Assembly: GCA_002773695.1 (NCBI GenBank)
Contig: PFAJ01000015.1
Location: 1-39,524 of the forward strand
Source: Candidatus Doudnabacteria bacterium CG10_big_fil_rev_8_21_14_0_10_41_10
Lineage (GTDB): Bacteria > Patescibacteriota > Doudnabacteria > UBA920 > 2-01-FULL-50-11
Direction: 5' to 3'
DNA: 39,524 nucleotides
The position numbers and the translations under genes were made by a program. The notes below the pieces were generated by a model. The model was not told where the DNA came from, made no database searches, and saw only the letters and a list, made by a program, of their open reading frames with translations. This document shows positions 12,325 through 31,323 of the stretch, piece by piece. The number at the start of each line of letters is the position of its first letter. Position 1 is the first letter of the stretch.

Positions 12325-12951
12325 ATGTTAAGCTTACCATTGAATACCCGTAACGGATTGGTTATAGTCGCTCATCCAGATGACGAAACTATTTGGATGG
12401 GAGGGACGATTTTTTCCTTTCCGCAGGTCAACTGGACGATTTTTTCGTTGTGCCGGAGCAGTGATTCCGATCGAGAGCCAAAATATATGCGGGTCTGCTC
12501 GCTCTACCCCGCACGCGGGATTATAACAGATTTAGAGGATGAAGGAATAATGAGCGTAGAAGAAAGCGTCGGTAAAATAAAAAGAATAATCAAAACTGAG
12601 CTGGTAACGAAAAGTTATGATATAATATTCACTCATGGATCCAATGGTGATTATGGCCATCTACGTCATAAAGGTGTTCATCGGGCAGTGACCGATTTGA
12701 TTAAAGCTCGCACCCTTTCCTGTCGGAAGCTTTATTATTTCTCCTATTTCCTTGATTCCAAAAAGAAGATTGCGCTACCCAAAGTTCCCGCGAAATACTT
12801 TATGAACCTACCTCTACCGGTCTGGCAGAAGAAAAAAAATTTAATACATGAAATTTATGGATTTAGCAGAAAATCTTTTGAATATCGAAGCTGTTCTAAA
12901 ATAGAAACTTTTGTTGATTCTAAATATAATGAAAACATTAATACTTTTTGA
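12325..12951 (+). CDS. PIG-L (LmbE-like) deacetylase family protein
   Basis: VIVAHPDDETIWMGGTI ... FTHGSNGDYGHLRHKGVHRAV. Confidence 0.92.
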   Translation: MLSLPLNTRNGLVIVAHPDDETIWMGGTIFSFPQVNWTIFSLCRSSDSDREPKYMRVCSLYPARGIITDLEDEGIMSVEESVGKIKRIIKTELVTKSYDIIFTHGSNGDYGHLRHKGVHRAVTDLIKARTLSCRKLYYFSYFLDSKKKIALPKVPAKYFMNLPLPVWQKKKNLIHEIYGFSRKSFEYRSCSKIETFVDSKYNENINTF

Positions 12952-14074
12952 TTACCCGCCAACCCCCACAGGGCTTTCTATGCAGGGCGATATGCTTTAT
13001 CGAGGTATGAAAGATAATGGTGAGGAAGTCATGTCATGCAATTTGACTGGCAGTTTGCAAAAGCAATGGTTATATGGTTCATTCAAACCCGATATTGTTG
13101 TTGGAGTTGGGCACTGGGGAGATGTTCCCGACGTGGTAATCCATCCTCAAAAATTTGGTGTAATCCCGGTGCCATGGTTTGTGGCTGATGGCTGGGTGGC
13201 GAATTATCATGATATACTCAGTTCCTTGCCTTTGGCCTTTATTACCAGCGAGTGGGTGAAGACAACTTATGCCCGGGATGGTGTGGATGTTAAGAATTTT
13301 GTAGTTGCTCATATTGGGATTGAACCTGATATTTACAAACCCATTTCAAAATCCGATCCAAGGGTAAAGCTGGTAAGAAACGCACTCGGGATCGCAGATG
13401 ACGAAGCCATGATTTTGACAATCGGCGGGGACGTGACCTCCAAGGGCGCGCAGGAGATGTTTAAAGCTTTAAAAATAGTAAATAAGGATTTCCGAAATTG
13501 GAAATATGTTTGCAAGACTTGGGGAGGAGGATCTTCAATAGACCATCGAGCGGATGAGTTACGGTTAATTGAGGAATTAGGAGACGCAAAGGATCGGGTG
13601 ATTTATCAGCAAGGTTCTTTTTCTCGCGATTTTTTACCTTACTTAATAAATGCCTGTGATATATACGCAGCCCCTAGTCGACTGGATGGGTATGGGATGA
13701 TACAGGTAGAGGCCCAAGCTTGCGGGATCCCAGTAATTTCGATAAATAAAATGGGACCACAAGAAACCATAGTTAATGGTAAGACCGGGTTTTTAGCGCG
13801 AGTTGCAGAGACTGTTGATTTATCAGAAGAGTGGGTTTACGAAGATATGGGATTTGAAAAAAAACATAAAAAAAAATTCGATCGTCCAAAAACCTTTGCC
13901 TATCGGGCGGATGTTGGAGAACTGGCAAATTATTTGATCAGTCTACTCGCCTCCCCAAAGTTACGTGAAGAGATGGGCCGGGCAGGACGTGAACATGTTT
14001 TGTTAAATTTTGAATATCACAAACTTGCGAAAGAAATGACTAAAAAGGTTAAACAACACCTAAATATTTCGTGA
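12929..14074 (+). CDS. Glycosyltransferase (GT4-like)
   Basis: Starts inside upstream gene (23-nt overlap); C-terminal region INACDIYAAPSRLDGYGMIQVEAQACGIPVIS typical of GT-B/GT4. Confidence 0.88.
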   Translation: MKTLILFDYPPTPTGLSMQGDMLYRGMKDNGEEVMSCNLTGSLQKQWLYGSFKPDIVVGVGHWGDVPDVVIHPQKFGVIPVPWFVADGWVANYHDILSSLPLAFITSEWVKTTYARDGVDVKNFVVAHIGIEPDIYKPISKSDPRVKLVRNALGIADDEAMILTIGGDVTSKGAQEMFKALKIVNKDFRNWKYVCKTWGGGSSIDHRADELRLIEELGDAKDRVIYQQGSFSRDFLPYLINACDIYAAPSRLDGYGMIQVEAQACGIPVISINKMGPQETIVNGKTGFLARVAETVDLSEEWVYEDMGFEKKHKKKFDRPKTFAYRADVGELANYLISLLASPKLREEMGRAGREHVLLNFEYHKLAKEMTKKVKQHLNIS

Positions 14075-14187
14075 ATAATTTTTAATCGAAAGAAAAATCC
14101 AAGCCAAAAGCCAGGACCGATAATTGTTCTACTATCGATAATAAAAAGTTTTTACTTCGCTAAACCAGAGAAAGCTCACCCGGGTTT

Positions 14188-15321
14188 TTAGAGGAAGAAA
14201 GGAATTTTTTTTTGTTTGAGACAATGATAGGCGAAAAGGTAAGAACCGGCAGACCATCCTTGAAAAGTAACCCCCATAGGTTTTCCGGTTTGGCCACTTA
14301 GCCATTCATTAAATTCCCAGAGCTTGTGTTTCCCCGCTCGATTAGCTAAAGCTAGTTGTTGAAGATTCCGGCCTGCTTTTTTTAGTTGTCCAGTTTTAAC
14401 TAAAGCCGCGATATACCAGCCTCCAATATATGGCCAGATTCCACCGTTAAGATAATGGTGAGGAGTTTTTGCCGCACATTTGGAAAAATAGGAGTGCCAT
14501 TCTTTGTCGTTTGGTTTAATGGGTGGATGTATGGTTTTACAAGGGAAAGGTTTATTGATTTTATTTTTTTCGATGTGTCGCAAGATCCCAAGGGAAATTG
14601 GTCGGGTTGCCAGTCCGGTCACGATTGCAAGAATATTACCAAACGTATCAAACCATGTTCCTTGCTCTCGGTCACCGTCGTGACCCTTCCAAACCCAAGG
14701 AAGGTAATACCCTCTCGTTTTGTCGTAAAGAGAGTTGTATTTTTTACCATTTATAACTTTTTTTATATGTTTTGCAAGGGCCATTTTATCATGTATTTTA
14801 AGCGCGGCATAGTAGAGTGCTAGTGTATTTAATACGCGGCCGTATTTATGGGGAAAAGCGTCTTGCCAGTCCATTGTGGGTTGTTGGACAATCAATTTGT
14901 CTTCGTTGGGGTCTTGATAAGATAACCATGCTAGTGCTTTTTTTAGGCTGGACTGGTATTTGTTGATTAGATTTAAATCGTGGTACTTTTTAGAGTACGC
15001 ATGATGTCCAATTAAATACCATAGCGTGGAGTCAATCGTATTAAAGGTTACATCTGATTGCCTTTCAAGATTATAGTCGCCTACCGCGTTAGGAATTTGT
15101 CCCAAACCCGACTGGTTTTTCGCCAAAGTTACCAAGCTTTTGGCGAAAGGAGTTTTGAATTTTTCCCCAGCTAAAGACGCGCCGATTGAAGTAATCATGC
15201 TATCTCTTGCCCATAGCGCCTCATATCCGCCAGGCAATCCAGACGCACTAAACCCTCGTCGATTAACACAATGTTCTAACACTTTTATTGCTTGTTGATA
15301 GCCTTCTTCTACAACGCTCAT
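14188..15321 (-). CDS. Amylo-alpha-1,6-glucosidase-like / six-hairpin glycosidase protein
   Basis: GGYEALWARDSMITSIGASL; (alpha/alpha)6-type repeats; GGIWPYIGGWYIAAL. Confidence 0.8.
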   Translation of the reverse strand: MSVVEEGYQQAIKVLEHCVNRRGFSASGLPGGYEALWARDSMITSIGASLAGEKFKTPFAKSLVTLAKNQSGLGQIPNAVGDYNLERQSDVTFNTIDSTLWYLIGHHAYSKKYHDLNLINKYQSSLKKALAWLSYQDPNEDKLIVQQPTMDWQDAFPHKYGRVLNTLALYYAALKIHDKMALAKHIKKVINGKKYNSLYDKTRGYYLPWVWKGHDGDREQGTWFDTFGNILAIVTGLATRPISLGILRHIEKNKINKPFPCKTIHPPIKPNDKEWHSYFSKCAAKTPHHYLNGGIWPYIGGWYIAALVKTGQLKKAGRNLQQLALANRAGKHKLWEFNEWLSGQTGKPMGVTFQGWSAGSYLFAYHCLKQKKIPFFL

Positions 15322-17552
15322 ATTTTTTCTAGGTGGTCTCTTACTTGTGAATTTTCAAATTCTAGCCTAGCCAAAAGATAGGACAGGGTTGATTCAGCTC
15401 CCTCATTGAGGTTTAAAGAGTATTGTCCCACCCCATCGTGGCAACCGCCCGTAACTTCGTCATAAACCATTTGTTGCAGATTGTTTTTACCGAGAAACCA
15501 GGTGAAGGCCTGATAGGCATTGGTTAAGTGCTTTAATTTTTTTGTAGTTTTGTAAGCGGTAATTTGAGACTGCACCATTGACGCGGTGTCTTCCGGCTGT
15601 TGGTCGTAATAGGATCGGTGTTTACCTTTGGCGTACCAGCCATTTTGTCCGATAGGTGAGTAATGTTTTTTTTTAAAAGTAATATCAGTAAGAAAATTGA
15701 GACTAGTCTGACCGACTTTTAAATATTTTTTTTCACGAGTGATATCGTAAGCAAAAAATAAACACTCCGAGAGTTTGCTGTTGGAATAGGTTAGGTTGTC
15801 TTCAAACCATAGCCATTGAGGAGCCGCCGATTCTTGATATAGTTTGATCTGTTTATCAGCAAGTTTTTTAAAGATTATCAGTAGTTTTTTGTTGGGATAA
15901 TTTTTTAGATAAAAATACAGACCAGACATTGCAAAAGCGATTGCTCGCGGAGCCTTTAGCGCATTTATGGTCACAAGAGATTTTTGGAACAAGTTTTTTG
16001 CCTTAGTCAAAATATTTTTTGGTAAATAATCTTGGGCGGTAAGGTATCCCAAAGCCCAGATTATCCGGCCTTGCGCATCTTCCTCAAAAGTCGTATCTTT
16101 TTTCTTTTTAATACTTACTATGTTGGCAAAACTACCATTGGGTCGTTGAACGAAATGGAGAAAATTTAAATAGGTTTGGATTAAATCTTCCACTTTTTGC
16201 GTGGGTTCGAGTAGATAATATTGGCCGCACACTATCAATGCCCGGGCATTGTCGTCAGCGCTGTAACCAAACCGCAAGTTTGGTTTATCGTAGGTGGCGT
16301 GTTGGATCAGTCCAAACTTATCAGTTAGTTTAACTAAATGGTCAAGTTTTATATCAGGAAACTTTTTTTCTTTTTCGGCAAAATTAGCAATTCGATTGTA
16401 GACATCAAAATATAAAGAGGCGACATTGGGCCAGATCATATGGCGGGTGGAAGCGTAAGCCGCTTGACTCATGGTTTTTAGGAGTTGTTCATTTCCTGCA
16501 AGTTTAGAAATAGCATGGCTGATAGCGCTTGGATTTCTAAATTTAACAAGGATTCCATTTTTATCGTTTATTACCCATTTGGCATATTCAGAGGGCGTAC
16601 TAACAGCAGGCCGACCACAGCCAAGAGCATAAGAAAGAGTTCCACTGACTGATTGGTTTGGATTGAGAGATGGTGAGATATATATATCAGTTGCTTTAAG
16701 GTAGTTAACGAGTTCCTCATATGACAGATATTTATTATAAAATTTTACGTATTTTTTTAAACCCAGAAGTTCAATTTCCCGCACCAAGGAATTACGATAG
16801 GCTTCCCCTTCACGCGACCGTAACACAGGATGAGTGGCGCCAAGTAATAAGTAGATGAGATTCGGATGCTTTTTAATCAATCGGGGCAAGGCTCGGATGA
16901 CATATTGGATCCCTTTGTCCGGACTCAGAAAACCAAAGGTGGTCAATACTAGACGGTTTTTTAGACCAAAATCAGATTTGAAAGAATCGCTTGGATCAAA
17001 AGTGGTCGAAGGAATGCCATGGGGAATAAGAATAATTTTAGATTTTGGTATGGAGTAATTATTTTCAAGCAGAACTTTTGATCGGTGGTTCATGACAATT
17101 ATCGCTTTGCTGTATTTGGCGATTGTTTTAACATTATCTATGATATTTTTTTTGGGTTGAGGAAGGACTGTATGAAAACTGGTAACCACCGGCTTTTTTA
17201 TAACCTGTAGAAAAGGGATTATATAATCACCCCAATTGCCCCCAAAAATTCCAAATTCATGCTGGATGTTAACCAGCTTTATAGGATTAAGCTTGTTAAT
17301 CTCTTGGGCTAAGCTCACATAATGGGAGGCATGATCAGCGGCTATTTGGCCCTGGACAATACCCGGGTAGTTATAAAGACTTGTTTCATTTTCATTGATA
17401 GCTATAACTTTGGATTTTATAGTTGGGTTATAGCGTTTGTTTATCGCTCGACATAAGTCCTGGGTAAAAGTTGCAATGCCACATTCTCTCGGAGGGTAAG
17501 TGCTCAATGATAAAATTATTGTATCGTGAGAACTAGGTTTCTTGATAAGCAT
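15318..17552 (-). CDS. GT4 glycosyltransferase fused to a C-terminal six-hairpin glycosidase-like region
   Basis: N-term LSLSTYPPRECGIATFTQDLCRAI... SFHTVLPQP...; C-term helical region GYSADDNARALIVCGQYYLL...QGRIIWALGYLTA. Confidence 0.85.
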   Translation of the reverse strand: MLIKKPSSHDTIILSLSTYPPRECGIATFTQDLCRAINKRYNPTIKSKVIAINENETSLYNYPGIVQGQIAADHASHYVSLAQEINKLNPIKLVNIQHEFGIFGGNWGDYIIPFLQVIKKPVVTSFHTVLPQPKKNIIDNVKTIAKYSKAIIVMNHRSKVLLENNYSIPKSKIILIPHGIPSTTFDPSDSFKSDFGLKNRLVLTTFGFLSPDKGIQYVIRALPRLIKKHPNLIYLLLGATHPVLRSREGEAYRNSLVREIELLGLKKYVKFYNKYLSYEELVNYLKATDIYISPSLNPNQSVSGTLSYALGCGRPAVSTPSEYAKWVINDKNGILVKFRNPSAISHAISKLAGNEQLLKTMSQAAYASTRHMIWPNVASLYFDVYNRIANFAEKEKKFPDIKLDHLVKLTDKFGLIQHATYDKPNLRFGYSADDNARALIVCGQYYLLEPTQKVEDLIQTYLNFLHFVQRPNGSFANIVSIKKKKDTTFEEDAQGRIIWALGYLTAQDYLPKNILTKAKNLFQKSLVTINALKAPRAIAFAMSGLYFYLKNYPNKKLLIIFKKLADKQIKLYQESAAPQWLWFEDNLTYSNSKLSECLFFAYDITREKKYLKVGQTSLNFLTDITFKKKHYSPIGQNGWYAKGKHRSYYDQQPEDTASMVQSQITAYKTTKKLKHLTNAYQAFTWFLGKNNLQQMVYDEVTGGCHDGVGQYSLNLNEGAESTLSYLLARLEFENSQVRDHLEKI

Positions 17553-18576
17553 TATTGTGACGAGATTTTTTTATTTCGGCGATTAGATTTTTGAGTTTTA
17601 CCGAGGCAACAGCAACAGCTCGATCCGCCGCTCCGTAATAGATATACAAATCAGGGCCAAACAAAGCGGTTCCGGTGGGAAAGACCACATTGGAAATCAA
17701 ACCTTTTTTTTCCCATTTTTTTGTAGGTGAAAACAGAGGATCGTGGAGCCGAGCAATTATTTTGCGGGGATTTTTTTTGTCAAGCAGGGCGGCACAAGCG
17801 TGATAAACTCGTCCTTTGTTGTTTTCTTCCACCGTATGAAAAATTAAAAGCCAACCGTCATCGGTGAGCAAAGGTGGACAGCCGCCGCCGATATTTCGAG
17901 ATTCAAACCAGTGCTTATTTTCTAAGATTATGTTTTTTGAAAGGTTTTTTATTTGACCCCGCCAATAGTCAGGAGTAAGCTCATTGAAGTTTTTGAAGAA
18001 AGCTATTTGAATATCAGGAAGGATACGATGGATAAGGGCGTACTGCCCATTGATTTTTTTGGGGAACAAAAACACATCTTTTTCCCAAATCAAGACATTT
18101 TTACCTTCATGGTTTTGATAATACGAGGAGAAGAAATAATAAGAATCTTTTAAAGAAGACTCAGAGAACAGCTTTTCAGCTTCTCGATAGGAAATGAGCG
18201 GGGAAATAATTCCCTGCTTTTTAAATTTTTTTAAATCTGTGCTGGTCGCGTAGGCGGTGACTGCATTTTTTCCATCATGGGCGACGTAAAAAACATAAAA
18301 AGTTTTCCCAACTTTTACTATGCGCGGATCTTCCACCCCGACTTTTTCATAGTCAAACTCCCTTGTCATTATCGGAAATTGTCCGCGCTCAACAACTGTG
18401 GTTGGACCTTTGAGTTTGGCGTAACCGATAGTTGATTTATTTTGTGAATCAATTGCTCTATAAAAAATATGGACGAATTCTCCATCTTTCCAAATACCCG
18501 GGTTTAGGACGCTTTTTTTTTCAAATTCCAGCTCACTTGGTTCGAGAATTACGCCATGTTTTTTGATTTTTAACAT
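17533..18576 (-). CDS. Glycoside hydrolase family 130 (mannosyl-glycan phosphorylase-like)
   Basis: VLNPGIWKDGEFVHIFYRAID...VGVEDPRIVKVGKTFYVFYVAHDG...GGCPPLLTDDGWLLIFHTVE...YIYYGAADRAVAVASV. Confidence 0.88.
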   Translation of the reverse strand: MLKIKKHGVILEPSELEFEKKSVLNPGIWKDGEFVHIFYRAIDSQNKSTIGYAKLKGPTTVVERGQFPIMTREFDYEKVGVEDPRIVKVGKTFYVFYVAHDGKNAVTAYATSTDLKKFKKQGIISPLISYREAEKLFSESSLKDSYYFFSSYYQNHEGKNVLIWEKDVFLFPKKINGQYALIHRILPDIQIAFFKNFNELTPDYWRGQIKNLSKNIILENKHWFESRNIGGGCPPLLTDDGWLLIFHTVEENNKGRVYHACAALLDKKNPRKIIARLHDPLFSPTKKWEKKGLISNVVFPTGTALFGPDLYIYYGAADRAVAVASVKLKNLIAEIKKSRHNNAYQET

Positions 18577-19435: not shown

Positions 19436-19849
19436 TTATATCATTTCCTCAGTATTTTTTTCAGATCGGAAAAACTTACCAATTTCCTCCGCCAGGTCTT
19501 CCGTGGTTAAAAAAGCTTTCAAAAAGTAAGATTGGATTTTTAGTGCATTTGCCATATCCTTGTTTTGTTTATCCCAAAGGTTGGTCAAAATAATAACCGG
19601 CACATCGGCAATTTGCTTGTCTTCATTTTCACGGACCAGTTTAAGCATTTCAAAACCGTTCATTTCCGGCATAAGCAAATCTAGCACGACCAAGTCGGGT
19701 TTTTCTCCCAAACATTTTTCGAGGCCGACTTTACCGTTGACCGCGTCAATTACGTCATAGCCTTTAGATTTAAGCTTTTTGACGATGATTGACCTCATCA
19801 TTCCATCATCCTCGACCACCAGAACCTTTTTATTATTTTGATTTTCCAT
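19436..19849 (-). CDS. Single-domain response regulator (REC)
   Basis: KKVLVVEDDGMMRSIIVKKLKSKGYDV...DLVVLDLLMPEMNGFEML...PVIILTNL. Confidence 0.93.
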   Translation of the reverse strand: MENQNNKKVLVVEDDGMMRSIIVKKLKSKGYDVIDAVNGKVGLEKCLGEKPDLVVLDLLMPEMNGFEMLKLVRENEDKQIADVPVIILTNLWDKQNKDMANALKIQSYFLKAFLTTEDLAEEIGKFFRSEKNTEEMI

Positions 19850-19917
19850 GGTAGAATATAGTGTTTATATTGTATCACAGATTGATTTATATCAAAAATA
19901 ACGATATATTTATTTAA

Positions 19918-20961
19918 ATGCATAAAATTAATCGAATGGTTTTTAAAGAGTATGATAAACATCGATCGGTCTTTTATTTTGATCGACCTTCTTTGAATTT
20001 AAAAGTTTTTATCGCGATCCACCGAAACAAAACCATTTTTCCTTCTTTTGGGGCTACAAGAATGATGATGTATGCCAATGAGGATGAGGCGCTCAATGAT
20101 GCTTTGCGGCTGTCACGGTTGATGTCTTACAAATCTGCTTTGGCGGGGTTGAATTATGGCGGGGCAAAAGGAGTGATTTTGTTCGACGGCAATCATCCTG
20201 ACAAATCAGAAGTTTTAAAAATATATTCCGATATGGTCAACGAACTGAAAGGAAAATTTATCACCGGGGCAGATGTCGGTCTTAGCCAGGAAGACGTTCA
20301 ACTAATGACTAGAAATAGTCCATATTTTGTTGGGACAAAAAATAAACCCGAAAAATGCACCGCATTGGGGATTGTTAAGGGCATTGAAGTTTGCTTAAAA
20401 CAGGTTTTTGGTAAAGGATTTATTTCTGACCATACTTTTGCAATTCAAGGGTTAGGCAAGGTAGGTTTGGATTTGTTAGGTTTGATTTATAATCAAGCTG
20501 GTAAAATTTATGTTTCGGATATATCATCAGAAAAAATTGAAGTTGCAAAAAATTTGTATCCGAACATTGTTCCGGTCCCCGTAGAAGATATTTTTAAGTT
20601 GGAGATAGATGTTTTTTGTCCGTGTGCGCTAGCACATGCGATTAGTCCAAAAATGATAGCCGAATTGAAATGCAAGATAGTCGCCGGTGGTGCTAACAAT
20701 CAGTTGTTTAATCAAGAGGTTGGAGATGCATTATTCAGTAAGGGTATTTTGTATGCCCCAGACTATGTGATAAACAGTGGCGGTTTGATCAGCGTTGCTG
20801 ATGAGTATGAAAATCGTTTTAAGAATGAAAATCATATTGAAAAAAAATTGGAACATATTAAATCGGTTCTGGAAACAATTTTTGAACAAAGCCAAACCCA
20901 AAACCTGGCGACTAACCGGGTGGCGGATCGGTTAGCTGAGGATATTTTTAATAATCACTAA
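19918..20961 (+). CDS. Leu/Glu/Phe/Val dehydrogenase family protein
   Basis: SALAGLNYGGAKGVI; ITGADVGLSQEDV; FAIQGLGKVG; IVAGGANNQL. Confidence 0.92.
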   Translation: MHKINRMVFKEYDKHRSVFYFDRPSLNLKVFIAIHRNKTIFPSFGATRMMMYANEDEALNDALRLSRLMSYKSALAGLNYGGAKGVILFDGNHPDKSEVLKIYSDMVNELKGKFITGADVGLSQEDVQLMTRNSPYFVGTKNKPEKCTALGIVKGIEVCLKQVFGKGFISDHTFAIQGLGKVGLDLLGLIYNQAGKIYVSDISSEKIEVAKNLYPNIVPVPVEDIFKLEIDVFCPCALAHAISPKMIAELKCKIVAGGANNQLFNQEVGDALFSKGILYAPDYVINSGGLISVADEYENRFKNENHIEKKLEHIKSVLETIFEQSQTQNLATNRVADRLAEDIFNNH

Positions 20962-22485
20962 ATGTTGTCGGAAACTTTTCCAAAAGATTTGCAAAATCCG
21001 GTAAATTTGATTGCTCAATTACAAAAACAACCTGAAAAATACTGGCAGGAACGTGGTTTTCTAATGGCAAAGGATTTATTTTGGCAAAAAACTCAACGTG
21101 TCCCCGCTTATAAAAAGTTTTTAGCCGGTCGCAATATTAATCTAAAATTACCTGATACGGTTAGTGATTTTGATAAAATTCCCCCGGTAGATAAAGATAA
21201 TTATTTAAGAAAATATAAAAGAAGTGATTTGTGCTGGGACGGTAATTTTTCAAACCAACATTGGGTGATTTCCACTACCTCTGGTTCTACCGGTAAACCT
21301 TATTATTTTCCCAGACAGGATTTTCAAGACCAACAGTACGCGGTCACTGCAGAACTATATCTTCGGACAAATTTTGAGATCCATAAAAAAAGCACTTTAT
21401 ATATAGTGGCGTTTCCGATGGGGGCTTGGATTGGCGGGCTATTTACTTATCAGGCATTAAAAAATCTTTCCAAAAGAGGCGATTACAGGCTAAGCATTAT
21501 CACTCCCGGTATTAGTACCGCGGACGTTTTAAATGCTTTGCAAAATTTAGGCAAAGATTTTGACCAGGTTATCATCGGCAGTTACGCTCCGTTTTTAAAA
21601 GATATTCTAGACGAAGGGGATCGATTGGGACTGGATTGGAAACAGTATAATTTGGGTTTTGTATTTTCCGCTGAAGGATTTAGTGAGGACTTTCGTGACT
21701 ATGTGGCAAAAAAGACCGGAATTGATAATATTTTTAAAAAAACTCTGAATCATTACGGAACGGTGGATATGGGGACAATGTCTTACGAAACTCCGCTCGC
21801 AATACTTGTTCGAAGGCTTGCTTTAAAAAACCAGAATATTTTTCGCAGGCTTTTCCCCAAAGCCTCAAAATTACCAACTTTAACCCAATATATTCCAGAG
21901 CAGTTTTATTTTGAAGAAGTCGAGGGAAGACTCCTCTGCTCATCGTTTAGCGGTTTACCTTTGGTACGTTATGATTTGAAAGATTCCGGCGGGGTTATTG
22001 GCCTGGAAGAAGTAAAAGAAATTTTTTTGAAAGAAGGGATAGATCTTTCAAATGAAGTTAAGCTCGCTGGAATCTCCGACACTATATGGAACATACCTTT
22101 TGTTTATGTTTACGAACGGACCGATTTTTCAGTTAGTTTTTTTGCTTTCCAAGTCTACCCGGAAACCATCCGAAAAGCGCTTATGGAGGATAAAGCAAGA
22201 GAGTACACTACAGGGAAGTTTACGATGCTGGTTCGGGAAAATGAACAAATGGATCAAGTTTTACAGATAAATATTGAACTTAAAAAAGGGTTTTCAGAGT
22301 CAAACGAAACGGTAAAAGCGTTAACCGAAGAAATTACAAATATATTAACAGCCGAAAATTCTGAATACCGAAAAACGAAAGAAATGTATCCGGAAAAAAC
22401 CGTTCCCGAGATCATATTGTGGCCTTATGAACATGAAAATTTTTTTAAGAGAGGAGTGAAACAAAAATGGATAAAAAACCGATAA
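20962..22485 (+). CDS. PaaK/CapK-like adenylate-forming enzyme
   Basis: STTSGSTGKPYYFPR P-loop-like motif; GLPLVRYDLKDSGGVI. Confidence 0.82.
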   Translation: MLSETFPKDLQNPVNLIAQLQKQPEKYWQERGFLMAKDLFWQKTQRVPAYKKFLAGRNINLKLPDTVSDFDKIPPVDKDNYLRKYKRSDLCWDGNFSNQHWVISTTSGSTGKPYYFPRQDFQDQQYAVTAELYLRTNFEIHKKSTLYIVAFPMGAWIGGLFTYQALKNLSKRGDYRLSIITPGISTADVLNALQNLGKDFDQVIIGSYAPFLKDILDEGDRLGLDWKQYNLGFVFSAEGFSEDFRDYVAKKTGIDNIFKKTLNHYGTVDMGTMSYETPLAILVRRLALKNQNIFRRLFPKASKLPTLTQYIPEQFYFEEVEGRLLCSSFSGLPLVRYDLKDSGGVIGLEEVKEIFLKEGIDLSNEVKLAGISDTIWNIPFVYVYERTDFSVSFFAFQVYPETIRKALMEDKAREYTTGKFTMLVRENEQMDQVLQINIELKKGFSESNETVKALTEEITNILTAENSEYRKTKEMYPEKTVPEIILWPYEHENFFKRGVKQKWIKNR

Positions 22486-24683
22486 TTTATGATCCAAAAA
22501 CGGAAACGCTGGAATCATTTAAACAATCGCGCCACATTTCAGAGATTGTTGACCAGTATCGAGAAATGGTTTACGAGCTTTATTCGGTACGGTTTCCAGA
22601 ATCCCGGCTAGATCCTGAAATAAAAACCAAGCAACAACAATTTTACAGCGAGCATTTAGAAAATGCTTTATCTGAATTGGCAGGGGTATGGTTTTATTTT
22701 CCTTGGAATCAAAAATTGGTTCATTATTTAAAAGAGGATTTACATCAAGAGCTGCGAACCGCAAGAAATAAAAATATTGTCACTAAAGCCGAGCAGGAAA
22801 AACTGTACGATTCAACAATTGGGATAGCCGGATTGAGCGTTGGGAGTCACGCGGCGTTAACTTTGGCTTTGTCGGGGATTGGAAAAAGAATGAAACTGGC
22901 TGATCCTGACAATATTTCCGGTTCGAATCTAAATCGAGTACGCAAAGGATTTGGGACAGTCGGTAAAAACAAAGCTTTGCTCACGGCACAGGATATATAC
23001 GAAATCAATCCTTATATGGAAATTGAGATTTTTGAGGAAGGAGTTAATATTGAAAATATCAACAGATTTTTTAATGATCCAACAAAGTTGGATTTATTGG
23101 TTGAGGAGGTTGATGATTTGAGATTGAAGATTTTGTTGAGAGAACAGGCAAAAAAGGAAAACGCTCCGGTAGTTATGGCGACCGATAACGGCGACAATGT
23201 TATTGTTGACATAGAGCGATATGATTTGAACAGCGGTACAAAACTGTTTAATGGTTTGGCTGGTGATATAAATTATCATGATTTTAAAAATTTATCACAA
23301 CGAGAGTTGCCAAAATTATCCACTTTGATTGCTGGAAAAGATTTGGTAGTTCCTAAAATGCAGGACTCTTTGTTAGAAGTTGGCAAGACTCTCTATTCAT
23401 GGCCTCAGCTTGGACTGGCCGCAACTTTATCCGGAGTTGCGGTTGCTTATGTCGCAAAAAAGATATTGCTAAATGAACGAATTCGGGATGGAAAATTGGA
23501 GATTAATTTGGATTCGATTTTTGATCCAGAATACAATTTTCCTGATAAAATAAAATACCGACAACAAAAAATACAAAATTTTCATAAACAAATAGGTATG
23601 GTTGATGATTTATTTGGGTTGTTGCAGGAAATTATTCACAATTCAGTAAATGCCCCGTCAGGTGACAATACCCAGCCGTGGCGTTTTGAATTGGGTAAAA
23701 ATTTCATAAATTTATATAATTTTCCAGATCGTGATAATCCAGTGTTAAACTATGAACAAAGCGGCTCGTATATTGCCCACGGTTGCTTACTTGAGAATTT
23801 ACGATTAAACTGTTTATATGGTGGTTATGAGCCTGAGATCAAACTTTTTCCGGACATCAAACAGCCAAATTTGGTAGCAACGGTAAGTCTGAAAGAAAAA
23901 ACCGAAACTCGAGATGAATTACAAAGTTATATAAAAGATCGTCATACTAATCGGCGGCCATACAATAATCAACCTCTTACCGAGAAACAAAAAACCGAAA
24001 TTAAAAATTGTGTTTTGGAACTGGGATTGGAAGATGGTTATCAGGTTAAGATTGTGGCAGATGAAAAAGAAGTTTATCAACTAGCAAAGACCGCAGCGTC
24101 GGTTGAAGAAGTTATTTTAGAGAATAAAACTACCCACCGATTATTTTTTGATGATATTGTTTGGACCAAAAGAAAAGAGAGCAAGGTGAAATCTGGTTTA
24201 TATCTAGCCACCATGGAATTCGCAGTCCCGCAAAAAGTATTTTTTTGGCTAGCAAGCCACTGGCCGATTATGAAATTGATGAATAGGTTTGGACTATCAC
24301 GATTTATAGCCCGGGAAGACACAAAACTTTACGCAAAAAGTTCAGCGATTTGCGGTGTAGTAATCCCTAGAACCACTCCTGAATCTTATATAAACGCCGG
24401 AAGGATTTTACAAAGAGTTTGGTTAAAGACGGTGAAATTGGGGTTAGCCCTTCATCCTGTGAGCGCTTTGCCATTTGCCGCTAGAAGAGCGCAAGGTTCC
24501 GGTTCAGAAGTTTTTAACAGTTTACATAGAGAGAAAATAACAAAAAATTACGGAGAGCAACTTTCTTTATTTAAAATAACCACAGAATTTGTTGGAATGG
24601 TTTTTCGAGTAGGTTTTGCACAACCTCCTAGCGCAGTTTGCTCAAAAAAAGAAGCACAAATAAAAATAATCTCTGAAAAATAA
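22467..24683 (+). CDS. ThiF/E1-like adenylyltransferase fused to nitroreductase domain
   Basis: TIGIAGLSVGSHAALTLALSGIGKRMKLADPDNISGSNLNR; C-terminal EIIHNSVNAPSGDNTQPWRFE and RHTNRRPYNNQPLT. Confidence 0.9.
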   Translation: MDKKPIIYDPKTETLESFKQSRHISEIVDQYREMVYELYSVRFPESRLDPEIKTKQQQFYSEHLENALSELAGVWFYFPWNQKLVHYLKEDLHQELRTARNKNIVTKAEQEKLYDSTIGIAGLSVGSHAALTLALSGIGKRMKLADPDNISGSNLNRVRKGFGTVGKNKALLTAQDIYEINPYMEIEIFEEGVNIENINRFFNDPTKLDLLVEEVDDLRLKILLREQAKKENAPVVMATDNGDNVIVDIERYDLNSGTKLFNGLAGDINYHDFKNLSQRELPKLSTLIAGKDLVVPKMQDSLLEVGKTLYSWPQLGLAATLSGVAVAYVAKKILLNERIRDGKLEINLDSIFDPEYNFPDKIKYRQQKIQNFHKQIGMVDDLFGLLQEIIHNSVNAPSGDNTQPWRFELGKNFINLYNFPDRDNPVLNYEQSGSYIAHGCLLENLRLNCLYGGYEPEIKLFPDIKQPNLVATVSLKEKTETRDELQSYIKDRHTNRRPYNNQPLTEKQKTEIKNCVLELGLEDGYQVKIVADEKEVYQLAKTAASVEEVILENKTTHRLFFDDIVWTKRKESKVKSGLYLATMEFAVPQKVFFWLASHWPIMKLMNRFGLSRFIAREDTKLYAKSSAICGVVIPRTTPESYINAGRILQRVWLKTVKLGLALHPVSALPFAARRAQGSGSEVFNSLHREKITKNYGEQLSLFKITTEFVGMVFRVGFAQPPSAVCSKKEAQIKIISEK

Positions 24684-26375
24684 ATGGAAATTTTTGCGAA
24701 TTTAGATCTGTTTACAGTAGGTTTAACCGTAACCGGGATTGGGGTTTTGGGTTTTTTGGTTTGGTTAACTAACCGTCGGAGTATTACGAATCGGACTTTT
24801 TTTGCTTTTTCTGTGATTACAGTTAGTTGGGGGATTATAAATTATTTAAATTATCAAACCGCCTCCCCGATGGACACTTTATGGCTTTTGAGGATTGTAT
24901 TATTTTTTGCTGTGTTACAAGCCTTTACTCTGTTTCAGTTTATTTATGTTTTTCCTTTGGAACAAGGAAATTTTTCTAAGGCCTATAAATATGGGCTTGT
25001 CCCATTGGTAATTTTTACAGCAATACTGACCCTCACACCAGCGGTGCTTAAAGAAGTCTTGGAAATTTCTTCCACCGGTGGAGCGACCAGAGTACGCAAT
25101 GGAGTTGGTATCGGTTTGTTTGGGTTGGTTAGTGTTGGGTTAGTTTTAGACGGACTTTTAACTTTATACAAGAAAATCCGCATTGCTGTCGGCGTGCAAA
25201 AATCCCAGCTAAAAACTATTGCTTATGGTGTTTCTATTACTTTCGCTTTGATTATCTTTTTTAACTTTTTTCTGCCGGCATTTTTGGACAACGCTCTTTT
25301 TATCCCTTTCGGCGCGGTTTTTATTTTACCTCTAATTCTTTTTACTTATCATGCAATCATTCAACATCATTTTTTGAACGTGAAGGTAATAACTGTAGAA
25401 GTGTTAATAATGGTTTTAGCGGTAACATCTTTCCTTGATGTTTTAATTTCTGAAAGCTTAATCGAGGTTTTGATAAGGGTGGTGACATTTATTTTAGTTT
25501 TAGTTATTGGAGTTTTGTTGATTAAAGGGGTTTTAAAAGAAATTAAACAAAAAAATGAATTGCAAGTTCTTAGCATAAAACTTAAAAGTGCCAACGAGAA
25601 ACTAAAAGAATTGGACCAAGCGCGGGCGGAGTTTATTTCTGTTGTCTCACACCAACTTCGTACGCCGCCCGCCACCCTCAAATGGTATTTAGCCGCTTTG
25701 TTAAGTGGAGATTTCGGGAAAGTCACAGCCGAGCAACTCGATGCCTTGCAAAAAGCCAACATCACCAACAACAATCTTATCTCATTAATAGAGGATATGT
25801 TGAATGTCTCTCGTATCGAGCGTGGTCGGATGGAGTTTGATTTTGTAAAAGGTGATTTAAACAAGCTAATCGAAAGTGTGATTGTTCAGCTAAAACCGCC
25901 GGCAGACGATAAAAAAATAGGTTTGGTTTATAAAAAACCGAAAAAATCTTTACCGGAAGTAGTGATGGACGGTGAAAAGGTAAAGCAGGTAGTAAACAAT
26001 TTGATTGATAATGCTATTAAATATTCGAAATCGGGCAGCATTACAATCGAACTTTCACAAACTAACGAACAAGCGAAGGTTCGAGTTACGGACACCGGTA
26101 AAGGAATTGACCAAAAAGAATTAGAAAATATTTTTTCTAAATATGGCCGGGGAAAAGATTCTAAAAAATACGCTACTGGTTTGGGTTTGGGTTTGTATGT
26201 TGCCAAAATAGTAATAGAACAGCACGAAGGAAAAATTTGGGTGGAAAGTCCGGGACGGGGGAAAGGTTCAACGTTCGCTTTCACCTTACCGATGAAAGTC
26301 GGGGCAAGAGCGGAGAAAAAAGTTTTTAACATGGCTCAAAAAAGCAATTTAACAAAAAAACAACCTTCTGGTTGA
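24684..26375 (+). CDS. Histidine kinase with multi-TM N-terminal sensor
   Basis: About 8 hydrophobic segments, then FISVVSHQLRTPPATLKWYL, VNNLIDNAIKYS, VTDTGKGI, GLGLGLYVAKIV. Confidence 0.95.
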   Translation: MEIFANLDLFTVGLTVTGIGVLGFLVWLTNRRSITNRTFFAFSVITVSWGIINYLNYQTASPMDTLWLLRIVLFFAVLQAFTLFQFIYVFPLEQGNFSKAYKYGLVPLVIFTAILTLTPAVLKEVLEISSTGGATRVRNGVGIGLFGLVSVGLVLDGLLTLYKKIRIAVGVQKSQLKTIAYGVSITFALIIFFNFFLPAFLDNALFIPFGAVFILPLILFTYHAIIQHHFLNVKVITVEVLIMVLAVTSFLDVLISESLIEVLIRVVTFILVLVIGVLLIKGVLKEIKQKNELQVLSIKLKSANEKLKELDQARAEFISVVSHQLRTPPATLKWYLAALLSGDFGKVTAEQLDALQKANITNNNLISLIEDMLNVSRIERGRMEFDFVKGDLNKLIESVIVQLKPPADDKKIGLVYKKPKKSLPEVVMDGEKVKQVVNNLIDNAIKYSKSGSITIELSQTNEQAKVRVTDTGKGIDQKELENIFSKYGRGKDSKKYATGLGLGLYVAKIVIEQHEGKIWVESPGRGKGSTFAFTLPMKVGARAEKKVFNMAQKSNLTKKQPSG

Positions 26376-26393
26376 TAGGCTGTTTTCTTGTTG

Positions 26394-26813
26394 TTATTTA
26401 GGATTTATTAACTTGCCTTCTTTTACCCCCGCTCGTTTTGGCTGTACAATCTTTTGGATTCTTTCAATAAATTCGTCCGGGTCGATACTTTTGTGAAAAT
26501 AATCTACTACCCATTTTTCTTTCGCCCATTGTTCGCCTTCACGAGAAAGATCTTCGTTGGTTAGAAATATGATAGGGATATCTTTCGTCGGCTCTTCTTC
26601 GTGGAGACGCCTGGCGACCGCAAATCCATCTTCGTTGGGCATGCGAATATCAAGCAGTATTAAAGCCGGCTGTAACCGTCTGGCGATTTCTCTTCCGGTG
26701 GGGGAATCGTTAGCATACAATACTTCGTATCCCGCCTTGGAAAGTTTTGCTCCCATAAGCCGTTGAATTACCGGATCGTCGTCGATTAGTAGAATGTGAT
26801 GTTTTGACTCCAT
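26394..26813 (-). CDS. Single-domain response regulator (REC)
   Basis: HHILLIDDDPVIQRLMGAKLSKAGYEV...ALILLDIRMPNEDGFAV...PIIFLTNE. Confidence 0.94.
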   Translation of the reverse strand: MESKHHILLIDDDPVIQRLMGAKLSKAGYEVLYANDSPTGREIARRLQPALILLDIRMPNEDGFAVARRLHEEEPTKDIPIIFLTNEDLSREGEQWAKEKWVVDYFHKSIDPDEFIERIQKIVQPKRAGVKEGKLINPK

Positions 26814-27055: not shown

Positions 27056-27712
27056 ATGAACAAAATTGCTGGGATAGTTATCGCAATCATTATAGTGATT
27101 GCGGGTGGTTTATTGATTTTAAACTTTAATAGTTCGACAGTAGATGATAATTCAATGATGGGAGGAGAGAGTGATCCGACTGAAAAATTACCAACCGATG
27201 CGCAGTTTACGCTCGACGCAGAAAGCTCAACTCTCACTTGGTCAGCATCAAGAATTGTAGGGGAGTCTCACACAGGGACAGTCGATATTGCTCGTGGAAG
27301 AGTCGTGCGTCAAGATGGAGAATTTATTGGTGGCGAATTTGTGTTTGATATGAATACAATTTCGGAGAGTAAAGATAACCAGATTTTTCTGAAAGACGTA
27401 AAGTCAGATGATTTTTTTGGAGTTGAACAATTTCCAACCGCCGATCTGGTAATCACCAGTATCGTGCCCGCAAGCGATTCAAGTTTTGCGGTAACTGGCG
27501 AATTGACCATTCGTGGCATCACCAACGAGATTTCGTTTACGGCCGACACTTCATTTTCCAAAGGGATACTTTTAGCTGAGGCCAATTTCGAAATCAACCG
27601 GACACGTTGGGGAATTGTGTTTGATTCGGGAACGTTTTTTGCGAATCTTGGAGATGAAGCGATTAAAGACGAAATACAGTACGAGTTGGATTTGGTGTTT
27701 ACTCAAAATTAG
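27056..27712 (+). CDS. YceI-family protein, membrane anchored
   Basis: FTLDAESSTLTWSASRIVGESHTGTVDIARG...GGEFVFDMNTI...KSDDFFGVEQFPTADLVIT...GELTIRGIT. Confidence 0.92.
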   Translation: MNKIAGIVIAIIIVIAGGLLILNFNSSTVDDNSMMGGESDPTEKLPTDAQFTLDAESSTLTWSASRIVGESHTGTVDIARGRVVRQDGEFIGGEFVFDMNTISESKDNQIFLKDVKSDDFFGVEQFPTADLVITSIVPASDSSFAVTGELTIRGITNEISFTADTSFSKGILLAEANFEINRTRWGIVFDSGTFFANLGDEAIKDEIQYELDLVFTQN

Positions 27713-28054: not shown

Positions 28055-29764
28055 ATGTACGAATATAAACTTAACCATATAGAGTCTGCTTCGCGCAGCC
28101 CGAACACAAAAATTGAACAAGAAAGCGCTTTTGAAATTGATGCGGCATCCTTTCAAAATGGTGTCACGGATTATTTTAAACTGATTTCTACAAACGAAAA
28201 AAGCGCCAAAGATTTAAAGGTTTACGTAGAAAAATTTTATGATGAACAAAAGATTTCTTCACCTGAAAACAGAGATGCAATACTCGGTTTCGCTGTTGCG
28301 GCGGCTAAACATCGCAATCCCCACATTGTTTTTGAAGTTTTGAAAAAAGAAGGTTTTTTGTCCGATAATCCGGAAAAATTAAATAGATTTTTAGAGTGTC
28401 TCGGCTCTCAAAAAGAGGATTTTCTTCCTGCTTTAGCGAAGGTTAATAATCCTGTAGAACAAAATCTTGGTATAGATGTAGACCCGGAAAAAGAAATTCG
28501 TCAGATATATTTATTTGAACAACTGACAAGGGCGATCCGAGCAAAAAATCCCAGCCAAGCTCATGCAATAGCGGAACAACTGTGCGGTCAAGTCGTGGAC
28601 ATTACCCACGCAACAGATTCATCGAGATTAAAGGCCATTTTACGTTCGGGAGAAATTTGGTCCAGTGAGGGTGGTGGTCATTACTACGGTAACGGGGTTT
28701 ACGCTGGCGTTAACGGTGGTTTTAGACATTGGGGCGATCAAATGATATATTTTAAACAAGTTCCCGCGGAAAAGCTGTTGCCCGTAATAAACGCTAAACA
28801 ACCCATGACAAACATACCGATAGAAAAAATAAAAATAAGCGACCCAAAACGTTTTGACGATATTGACGGACTTTCTCCGGATGATCCTTTTTTCTATTTG
28901 CCTTCAATAATCGAAGCTACGCCAAATCTTGATGAAATGAACAGTTATAGATTTCCCGGTTTTATGGAACCGGTAGATAAAGCAGTTTTAAAACAAATTG
29001 ACAATTTACTCGGCTTGGTGAAAGTTGAAAAAGCCTTCGATGATTTTTATGGAATCTACGATCGGGTTTACGTGCAAGATAAGCGTCCTTTGGTATGCAT
29101 GGCAGTTATGAACTCTTTATATACTGTTGGCGAAATAGTATGGGATGAAAAAACTGAACTGAATGTCGCAGAACCAATAAACCTTGAGGATGAAAAGGAA
29201 GTCAATGTTATTGTTGAACAAATATTGAGTTGTTACGTAACCGAGAGTCGTGATATTGATTCTCCCCATGGCCGACGGCATATAGAGCGGGTTATTGAAA
29301 ATATTAAAATTTTATCGGACGAAATAAAAGCAGATATTAAAACTCGCCATATGGCTATAATAGCTGCCGCCGCGCATGATATTATTCGATATACTCGGGA
29401 CATTTCTCCAAACTGGGCGTCCGCTCTTTGGGTAAAAAGATTATTAAACGGATTGTTGGAACGCCAATCTTTAAAAAAGATACGAGACGCCATTGTTCAA
29501 CATAGTAGTCCAAAAGATGATCGGATTAACGATACTGTCATTACTCAACTTCTTTATGATGCGGATAAAATGGATACGAGAGCGGATAGATTTCATATGC
29601 ATATAAGGGATGAACAATATAATAATGTGTCAGACGGACTATTTGAAGATTATATTGAGATGGTAATGGAGAGCGTTTATTCAAAGGTAGCCCGTGAATA
29701 TTTAGAAGATCTTTTAAAACAGCAAAAACATCGTAAAGAAACGTTGCCTCATAAACAATTTTAG
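28055..29764 (+). CDS. ADP-ribosyltransferase-like region fused to C-terminal HD domain
   Basis: DITHATDSSRLKAILRSGEIWSSEGGGHYYGNGVYAGVNG (ART-like H and Y motifs, tentative); HD residues in SPHGRRHIERV, AAAAHDIIRYTR, IVQHSS, LYDADKMD. Confidence 0.7.
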   Translation: MYEYKLNHIESASRSPNTKIEQESAFEIDAASFQNGVTDYFKLISTNEKSAKDLKVYVEKFYDEQKISSPENRDAILGFAVAAAKHRNPHIVFEVLKKEGFLSDNPEKLNRFLECLGSQKEDFLPALAKVNNPVEQNLGIDVDPEKEIRQIYLFEQLTRAIRAKNPSQAHAIAEQLCGQVVDITHATDSSRLKAILRSGEIWSSEGGGHYYGNGVYAGVNGGFRHWGDQMIYFKQVPAEKLLPVINAKQPMTNIPIEKIKISDPKRFDDIDGLSPDDPFFYLPSIIEATPNLDEMNSYRFPGFMEPVDKAVLKQIDNLLGLVKVEKAFDDFYGIYDRVYVQDKRPLVCMAVMNSLYTVGEIVWDEKTELNVAEPINLEDEKEVNVIVEQILSCYVTESRDIDSPHGRRHIERVIENIKILSDEIKADIKTRHMAIIAAAAHDIIRYTRDISPNWASALWVKRLLNGLLERQSLKKIRDAIVQHSSPKDDRINDTVITQLLYDADKMDTRADRFHMHIRDEQYNNVSDGLFEDYIEMVMESVYSKVAREYLEDLLKQQKHRKETLPHKQF

Positions 29765-30014: not shown

Positions 30015-30584
30015 ATGATTCTCAATTTAAAAGCACAATCCGATGAGGTAATAGCGAAGTTAGTGCAGACAGGCGACCGAGAGTCGTTCGGTCTTTTGGT
30101 GGAAAGGTATGAACAAAAAATGAAACGATATGTCCGCCGGTTTCTTTTTAACGAGCAGGAAGATATTACGCAGGAAATATTTATCAAAGCTTATTCAAAC
30201 ATCCAAAGCTTTGATACCAGCCGCAAATTTTCCCCTTGGCTTTATCGGATCGCGCATAACGAGTTGATTAATCAAATAAAAAAACGAGGGAAAGAGCAGG
30301 TGTCGTATTTTGATTTTGACACGGTATTCCCACACCTTAAAGCCAAAGAAACGGCAGACTCGGATATTTTACAAAATCAGGATAAAGAATTAATTGGCAA
30401 GCTGTTGCCAAAGTTGGACCCAAAATATCGCGAGCCGTTGTTACTATATTATTTCGAAGATCTGGATTATAAAGAAGTGGCTGAAATAATGAGAATTCCG
30501 GTTTCTACTGTGGGGGTAAGAATTAAGCGAGCAAAGGAAATTTTAAAGAAGCATATTATTGAATCTGAAACTAAATATGAATAA
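30015..30584 (+). CDS. ECF-type sigma-70 factor
   Basis: FGLLVERYEQKMKRYVRRFLFNEQEDITQEIFIKAYSNIQSFD...FSPWLYRIAHNELINQIKK; sigma4 region YKEVAEIMRIPVSTVGVRIKRAKEILKK. Confidence 0.93.
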   Translation: MILNLKAQSDEVIAKLVQTGDRESFGLLVERYEQKMKRYVRRFLFNEQEDITQEIFIKAYSNIQSFDTSRKFSPWLYRIAHNELINQIKKRGKEQVSYFDFDTVFPHLKAKETADSDILQNQDKELIGKLLPKLDPKYREPLLLYYFEDLDYKEVAEIMRIPVSTVGVRIKRAKEILKKHIIESETKYE

Positions 30585-31323
30585 TAAAGAAGAAAAATCG
30601 ATTAAAGACCAGATTTTGGGAAAACTGGAAAAAGGCGGAATGAAGATGCGTCCAAAGTATTATTTTGTGATCAGAACAATTTTAGTTGTGTTAACAGTCG
30701 TTCTTTTGGTCTTAACCGTGTTGTTTTTAATAAGTTTTGTGTTTTTTCAGCTACGGTTTTCCGGATTACACCATACCCCATCTTTTGGTCTTCCTGGCGT
30801 GAAAGCGTTTGTGGTTTCTCTTCCGTGGGTGTTGATTGCTTTAATTGTGTTCCTAACTTTTGCATTGGAGTATCTTTTAAAAAAATATTCATTTACTTAT
30901 AAGCGGCCATTAATCTATTCGTTGATGGTGGTGGTAGTTGTGGTTCTGGTGGTTGGTTTTGTAGTTTCAAATACGCCGTTGCATGATCGGTTTGCTATGC
31001 GCGCCATGGAAAATAGGTTGCCGGTTGCCGGGGGTCTGTATCGAGAGATAGAAAAAAGAGCTCTTGGTCACGCGCAGTTCGGACAGGTTACAGCTGTGCG
31101 TGACGACGAGTTTGATTTGGAAACCAGGTTGGGAGAAAGATTAACAATAAAAATAAATGAGAGGACGATATTTCAAACCGCCTTGAATTTGCGGGTGGAT
31201 GACGTGGTTATGGTTATTGGCAATAAAGACAATGGAACAGTGGATGCCGTAAGAATTCAAAAGGTGCCAGACGAAAAATTTCCAATGCAAAGAATAAAAG
31301 GCAGATTTCATATGATGAAATAA
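30577..31323 (+). CDS. Membrane protein, possible anti-sigma/regulatory partner of the ECF sigma factor
   Basis: 8-nt overlap with sigma gene; cytoplasmic N-terminus, TM segments, C-terminal OB-like region GQVTAVRDDEFDLETRLGERLTIKINERT. Confidence 0.7.
   Translation: MNNKEEKSIKDQILGKLEKGGMKMRPKYYFVIRTILVVLTVVLLVLTVLFLISFVFFQLRFSGLHHTPSFGLPGVKAFVVSLPWVLIALIVFLTFALEYLLKKYSFTYKRPLIYSLMVVVVVVLVVGFVVSNTPLHDRFAMRAMENRLPVAGGLYREIEKRALGHAQFGQVTAVRDDEFDLETRLGERLTIKINERTIFQTALNLRVDDVVMVIGNKDNGTVDAVRIQKVPDEKFPMQRIKGRFHMMK

Follow-up and report, generated by a model that had tools for sequence, protein, structure and literature searches.

A window of 39,524 nucleotides (contig PFAJ01000015.1, positions 1 to 39,524) from Candidatus Doudnabacteria bacterium CG10_big_fil_rev_8_21_14_0_10_41_10, a member of the Patescibacteria with a genome of 1.08 Mb, was analysed for the function of a run of four genes on the plus strand. 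The run consists, without gaps, of an ELFV dehydrogenase, a PaaK-like ligase, a ThiF-nitroreductase fusion and a histidine kinase (junctions in this order: 0 bp, 19-bp overlap, 0 bp). It is bracketed by two stand-alone receivers, the upstream one divergent (68 bp) and the downstream one convergent (18 bp; Table 1). The open reading frames, their coordinates, their near-contiguity and the lone receiver at each end, as described in a first-pass annotation of the same DNA, were all recovered. The enzymes of the cassette seem to produce a ring molecule derived from an amino acid, and the kinase seems to be the cassette's own membrane receptor. Transcription units were called from gene spacing alone, and a scan for promoters and terminators was not clearly above shuffled sequences (28 versus 22.7 +/- 5.6). 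The absence of gaps between the genes speaks against separate transcription of the kinase, which the first-pass annotation had named as refuting evidence. Open reading frames antisense to conserved genes, e.g. at 25367-25864 and 25928-26332, were taken as chance.

Table 1. Genes of the cassette in the window, and synthase and kinase genes at compared loci (locus label before the colon). TM, transmembrane.
Feature	Position	Strand	Assignment based on
REC1, stand-alone receiver, 137 aa	19436..19849	-	Pfam PF00072 Response_reg, 68.5 bits
ELFV amino-acid dehydrogenase, 347 aa	19918..20961	+	PF02812 and PF00208
PaaK-like ANL ligase, 507 aa	20962..22485	+	Pfam AMP-binding C-terminal domain, barely above cut-off; family profile; AlphaFold model
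Fusion of ThiF (~1-375) and Acg-type flavin oxidase/nitroreductase (~380-738)	22467..24683	+	NCBIfam NF005901; nitroreductase weak in Pfam
Histidine kinase, 563 aa, with multi-TM N-terminus, HisKA and HATPase_c	24684..26375	+	PF00512 and PF02518
REC2, stand-alone receiver, 139 aa	26394..26813	-	PF00072, 74.3 bits
LuxI/FeeM-family acyltransferases immediately upstream of 7TM kinases	L113:8809-9432; L103:8345-8992
7TM kinases directly after alpha-oxoamine synthases	L161:6179-7780; L170:6618-8891
Genes of a KAS III-like synthase and of UbiA-type prenyltransferases directly preceding the kinase family	L114:8012-9040; L116:6625-7482; L163:2850-3740; L171:2939-3793

Conservation was assessed in a co-occurrence sample of 380 Patescibacteria genomes; L-numbers (e.g. 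L040) denote compared loci in other genomes. The PaaK family was present in 54 genomes and the core ThiF in 46; 43 genomes had the two together (Fisher p 1.1e-42, odds ratio 421; the test was not corrected for relatedness, and the 54 PaaK genomes cover 47 genera). Relatives of the fusion occurred in 63 genomes. In 41 of the 54 PaaK genomes, ThiF was located within 3 kb of PaaK on the same strand; in 46 of them, the N-terminal kinase region was found no farther than 6 kb from PaaK, likewise on its strand. The kinase followed PaaK directly (36-142 bp) in 14 genomes, some of them without a recognised ThiF, and a seven-transmembrane (7TM) kinase was found nearby at 79 of 88 PaaK loci. The order PaaK, ThiF, nitroreductase and histidine kinase was found again in dozens of genera at about 35-50% amino-acid identity. 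Because this order recurs so widely, the cassette is not a chance grouping, and the synteny proposed as a check in the first-pass annotation is strong across the Patescibacteria.

Named genomes were scanned with a pattern derived from a nine-member PaaK set, resulting in 43 loci, among them loci in Paceibacter, Adler-, Magasanik-, Roizman-, Kaiser-, Woese-, Doudna-, Gottesman-, Lipton-, Nomura- and Saccharibacteria. All named organisms with this PaaK family belong to the Patescibacteria (candidate phyla radiation), to which the cassette was confined among the DNA compared. Beside fusion relatives on plasmids (Rhodococcus, Mycolicibacterium, Desulfovibrio, Streptomyces), PaaK and the kinase were absent, and only the known architecture was present. 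Methyltransferases are optional members (L033, L036 and L049; that of L033 recognised only by its similarity to L036).

The fusion was matched at full length by the NCBIfam model NF005901 ("Rv1355c family") with 452.4 bits (protein 12-729, model 24-713), slightly below its curated cut-off (476). The protein Rv1355c is TrzS. It uses ATP to cyclise N-acyl-tryptophan to an oxazolone, which it desaturates in a second reaction with flavin mononucleotide (FMN) and O2; cyclisation is lost in the mutant D217A, and desaturation is impaired in R540A (PMC12856293). The same cyclisation and desaturation are performed for Tyr and Phe by OxzB (Pseudoalteromonas) and TyzB/TyzC (PMC10404671). Judged by sequence, the fusion architecture is already known and resembles TrzS, OxzB and TyzBC. 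The adenylation residues N154, N156, R157, K169 and D216 are identical in actinobacterial Rv1355c-family proteins and in all aligned ThiFs of the cassettes. The equivalent of TrzS D217 is the invariant D216 (the M. smegmatis sequence itself was outside the comparison). The flavin motif S398-x2-N401-x-Q403-x-W405 is likewise common to the actinobacterial proteins. Thus, the loss of catalytic residues, named in the first-pass annotation as evidence that would count against a functional module, was not seen; residues of the adenylation and FMN sites are retained. In other members of the phylum, cyclase and oxidase are usually encoded by two adjacent genes.

A role in molybdopterin or thiamine biosynthesis was rejected, with MoeB/ThiF models far below cut-off and the full-length match going to the Rv1355c family. 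Separately, ThiF proteins observed beside 7TM-GAF kinases (L069:4298-6367, also L109 and L111) are 550-690 aa long and have an N-terminal region without assignment. This additional part, possibly an acyltransferase, had no Pfam family match (L069).

The PaaK-like ligase was characterised by profile and structure comparison. Its family profile matched the solved PaaK structure 2y4o with 2e-21. An AlphaFold model (predicted local distance difference test 89) gave PaaK1/2 as best Foldseek matches (E 5e-22 to 2y27; template modelling score 0.64-0.74 to 2y4o), followed by NatL2, AjiA1 and ClxA and, farther away, the amide synthetases McbA and GH3. S107, G108 and G111 of the ATP-binding motif, as well as D341, R386 and K500, are invariant in a 35-member PaaK alignment. 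The ligase therefore has the fold and ATP-binding motif that mark a PaaK enzyme, but its equivalog score is 26.2 bits against a cut-off of 700 (paak_haloarch). No FeeM-type acyltransferase (PF21926) was found in the neighbourhood of the cassette or in the whole genome from which the window derives. Since the ligase holds the same place as the FeeM/LuxI-type acyltransferase of sister cassettes, the simplest reading by analogy is that it makes the N-acyl bond, with formation of a coenzyme A (CoA) thioester as the other possible activity.

The first gene of the run is exchangeable between loci. At 88 distinct PaaK loci, the head gene encoded an ELFV dehydrogenase in 30 cases, a class I/II aminotransferase in 18 and a 4-methylideneimidazole-5-one (MIO)-type ammonia-lyase in 8; it was missing at 31 loci and lost to a contig edge at one. 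The common denominator of these three unrelated enzymes is the removal of the alpha-amino group from an amino acid. The PaaK of the window, with its ELFV head, nests in a clade with mostly aminotransferase heads (nearest relative 57% identical), and the head has therefore been exchanged between enzymes of the same product class. PaaKs with lyase heads mostly group on their own. This fits a supply of the same alpha-keto acid by ELFV dehydrogenase and aminotransferase, and of an aryl-acrylic acid by the lyase, for which tyrosine ammonia-lyase FlxA was the best family (599 bits, cut-off 700). In one genome, ELFV dehydrogenase and PaaK are fused (L040:6321-8861, 847 aa).

The dehydrogenase of the window keeps K72, K84 and D119, which are invariant in 12 relatives. 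It scored 284.9 bits with the NCBIfam model of the tryptophan dehydrogenase ScyB (NF035922), under the equivalog cut-off of 600, and is by this score not assigned to ScyB. Scores to leucine and tryptophan dehydrogenases among PDB structures were alike (234 and 225 bits) and do not tell these substrates apart; the substrate is perhaps an aromatic amino acid. Since the deaminating gene can be exchanged, related products would be expected to form families.

The 26 best matches to the N-terminus of the histidine kinase outside the window genome were all within cassettes. PF16927 (HisKA_7TM) was detected in 24 of 26 cassette kinases; the kinase of the window scores under the threshold, although it can be aligned along this region. 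H323 of HisKA and N439, N443, D470, G472 and G474 are invariant. The N-terminus was modelled as a helical bundle with moderate confidence, and fold comparison gave only GPCR-like matches, which were non-significant (E > 0.03) and were not used as evidence. Both receivers keep their phosphorylation sites (REC1: Asp57 with the acidic pocket D14/D15; REC2: Asp55 with the acidic pocket kept) and have no output domain. Other cassettes (e.g. L037, L041, L047, L052 and L059) have a homologous divergent receiver in the position of REC1, and lone receivers homologous to REC2 adjoin many cassettes.

The same kinase family was also found beside other synthases. At L100, L103, L107 and L115, a FeeM-family gene is located between a short ThiF gene and the kinase. 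The acyltransferases of L103 (40.6 bits) and L113 (43.2 bits) pass the Pfam cut-off of 24 for LuxI (Autoind_synth). In the 380 genomes, six of nine FeeM genes above cut-off and 10 of 16 short ThiF genes were within 2 kb of such a kinase on the same strand, always upstream of it; the chance of lying so near is about 0.3% per gene. Alpha-oxoamine synthases (BioF/Kbl superfamily) directly precede the kinase at L161 and L170 (NF005526, 139 and 160 bits, cut-off 428), and three UbiA-type prenyltransferases and several methyltransferases do so elsewhere. Several further kinase loci had no informative neighbour, so that the association holds often but not always. Because the kinases are repeatedly downstream of unrelated small-molecule synthases, the pattern is best explained if this family senses the products of the neighbouring synthases.

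Together, these data point to a signal-synthase-plus-receptor operon, a reading to which we assign a probability of roughly 45%. First, the ELFV dehydrogenase would deaminate an amino acid to an alpha-keto acid, a step for which relatives would use a pyridoxal phosphate-dependent aminotransferase or a tyrosine-ammonia-lyase-like enzyme. The PaaK-like ligase would then adenylate the acid and link it to an amino acid by an amide bond, standing in for the N-acyltransferase FeeM/OxzA/TrzA. Following the reactions of TrzS, OxzB and TyzB, ThiF would adenylate the carboxylate of the N-acyl amino acid and close an oxazolone-type ring, which the flavin oxidase would desaturate. Finally, the product or its open precursor would bind the 7TM region of the kinase, and the signal would pass to one or both lone receivers. 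The gene assignments, their conservation, the retained cyclase residues, the exchange of the head gene and the coupling of synthase and kinase are well supported by the comparisons described above; we infer the substrate, the formation of an amide, a ring as product, sensing by the kinase and the relay to the receivers.

Several observations weigh against this pathway. PaaK enzymes usually make CoA thioesters, and many Patescibacteria live without oxygen. No deaminating gene was nearby at 31 of the 88 PaaK loci, the receivers have no output domain, a conserved exporter is lacking, and HisKA_7TM kinases also occur without cassette genes. The oxidase step is less certain because the column of TrzS R540 may be Glu in the window, as located by a constant numbering offset that is itself deduced. 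The oxidase is missing at L120, L121, L126, L136 and L151, and PaaK-kinase pairs without ThiF were found at L082, L083 and L086. In mycobacteria, the oxidase step needs O2 (PMC12856293). Given these loci and the dependence on oxygen, the product must vary, and an oxazolone is not the product everywhere.

In a less likely alternative, the metabolite is secreted or serves protection (as an antioxidant, a pigment or an agent against neighbours or the host), and its production is switched on by the kinase in response to something else, such as host contact or stress. Co-transcribed sensor kinases often control their own operon, and oxazolones are tied to stress by the oxidative-stress phenotype of tyz mutants and by antibiotic induction in proteobacteria (PMC12856293, PMC10404671). 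However, one kinase family consistently downstream of chemically different synthases is expected of a product-tracking receptor rather than of an environmental sensor, and the receivers have no DNA-binding domains.

Fermentative amino-acid salvage, in which deamination is followed by formation of a PaaK acyl-CoA for energy, with ThiF and oxidase as side chemistry, is improbable. The combination of ELFV dehydrogenase or aminotransferase with a PaaK-type ligase does follow the logic of aromatic amino-acid catabolism, and PaaK is the closest solved relative of the ligase. This leaves the most tightly linked partners, the cyclase-like ThiF gene and the kinase, without explanation, and the PaaK-kinase pair persists where ThiF and deaminase are absent. 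Slightly less probable again is that ligase and ThiF act on a protein or peptide substrate, as in a conjugation or peptide-heterocycle system, and not on free small molecules. E1-like relatives do include ThiF, MccB and PaaA, and nitroreductase-type oxidases occur in peptide-heterocycle pathways, but the full-length match is a small-molecule cyclase-oxidase, and in about 100 neighbourhoods there was no noticeable conservation of a precursor peptide, ubiquitin-like protein, E2-like protein or peptidase (very short open reading frames were not searched). It is very unlikely that the metabolite serves the kinase as a bound chromophore or cofactor, making it a built-in light or redox sensor, and not as a diffusible signal. 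Photoactive yellow protein does obtain its coumaroyl chromophore through a pair of tyrosine ammonia-lyase and ligase. Aryl-oxazolones absorb near 360-400 nm (PMC12856293), but the pairing of the kinase family with LuxI-type and alpha-oxoamine synthases is left unexplained.

The signal-synthase-plus-receptor operon remains the leading reading. The proposal of the first-pass annotation, an amino-acid-derived molecule sensed by the coupled kinase, gained from the alternative deaminases and from the kinases beside FeeM/LuxI-type and alpha-oxoamine synthases, and is so far supported in part. Its description of the module as undescribed had to be narrowed: the ThiF-nitroreductase fusion is known from Rv1355c/TrzS (PMC12856293), whereas the remaining combination (no FeeM, a PaaK-like ligase, an exchangeable deaminase and a HisKA_7TM kinase) was found nowhere described.

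Patescibacteria have very reduced genomes and are mostly uncultured. That about one in seven sampled genomes devotes 6-8 kb to a conserved synthase-kinase cassette suggests that communication or host sensing matters to them. Slightly more tentatively than for the operon itself, a shared 7TM kinase receptor family with interchangeable synthases (PaaK-ThiF-oxidase, FeeM/LuxI-type plus ThiF, alpha-oxoamine) is proposed for the Patescibacteria. If true, the whole phylum would share a chemical signalling language, which may be quorum-like or directed at a host, and oxazolone-type molecules from two amino acids would be one of its dialects. Within an incomplete coverage of the literature, no report was found of such signalling in Patescibacteria, of oxazolone clusters in Patescibacteria, or of a link between oxazolones and histidine kinases. 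What bacterial oxazolones do physiologically is described as unresolved in the literature (PMC12856293); with a receptor kinase genetically coupled to their synthesis, this question would become directly testable.

Further genes were noted in the window. Just past the cassette, a protein with a YceI-like domain (27056-27712) is not conserved with the cassette in relatives. It is followed by a 569-aa protein without Pfam match (28055-29764), whose C-terminal half looks HD-hydrolase-like (HGRRHIE ... AAAAHD), and by an ECF sigma factor with a 254-aa protein without family, possibly an anti-sigma factor (30015-31323). Upstream, carbohydrate genes (12325-18576) encode a PIG-L deacetylase, two glycosyltransferases, a GH100/GDE-type hydrolase and a GH130 phosphorylase. 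At 8751-10913, a heavy-metal P-type ATPase carries an HMBD domain at its N-terminus.

The cassette was compared with known systems and may be likened to the combination of an oxazolone cluster with a synthase-receptor pair. It shares with TrzAS (Rv1356c-Rv1355c, PMC12856293) the conserved adenylation and FMN residues at only about 27% identity, and the Rv1355c-family model matches over the full length but with a score under its cut-off. In place of the N-acyltransferase TrzA, the window has the PaaK-like ligase and the amino-acid dehydrogenase, and kinase and lone receivers stand where TrzAS has cyclic di-GMP genes. In OxzAB (Pseudoalteromonas rubra) and TyzACB (PMC10404671), cyclase and oxidase are fused or adjacent, and both states occur among the Patescibacterial cassettes. 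These systems employ acyltransferases of the FeeM/LuxI fold, whereas in Patescibacteria such a gene is present only in the sister architecture of FeeM, ThiF and kinase, and not in the window. Because this defining acyltransferase is absent, the cassette cannot be called an oxz/tyz/trz cluster, although it probably works like one.

The ligase shares the PaaK-family fold with NatL2, AjiA1 and ClxA, which serve benzoxazole-type pathways, but identity is only 14-15%, and the cassette of the window has no amidohydrolase partner. With flexirubin biosynthesis, the MIO lyases of the cassettes share their best match FlxA (tyrosine ammonia-lyase), and the ligase weakly matches the PaaK-like ligase FlxY; polyene and resorcinol genes are lacking, and the window is headed by an ELFV dehydrogenase, not by a lyase. 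In CqsA/CqsS and LqsA/LqsS, a small-molecule synthase gene is located beside the gene of a multi-transmembrane sensor kinase. CqsA and LqsA belong to the alpha-oxoamine synthase (BioF/Kbl) superfamily, whose members precede the present kinase family at L161 and L170. The synthase chemistry differs in the window, the receivers are lone proteins, and a diffusible signal is only proposed here. The coupling of a synthase gene to a membrane sensor kinase, by which a quorum-type pair is recognised, is present in the cassette.

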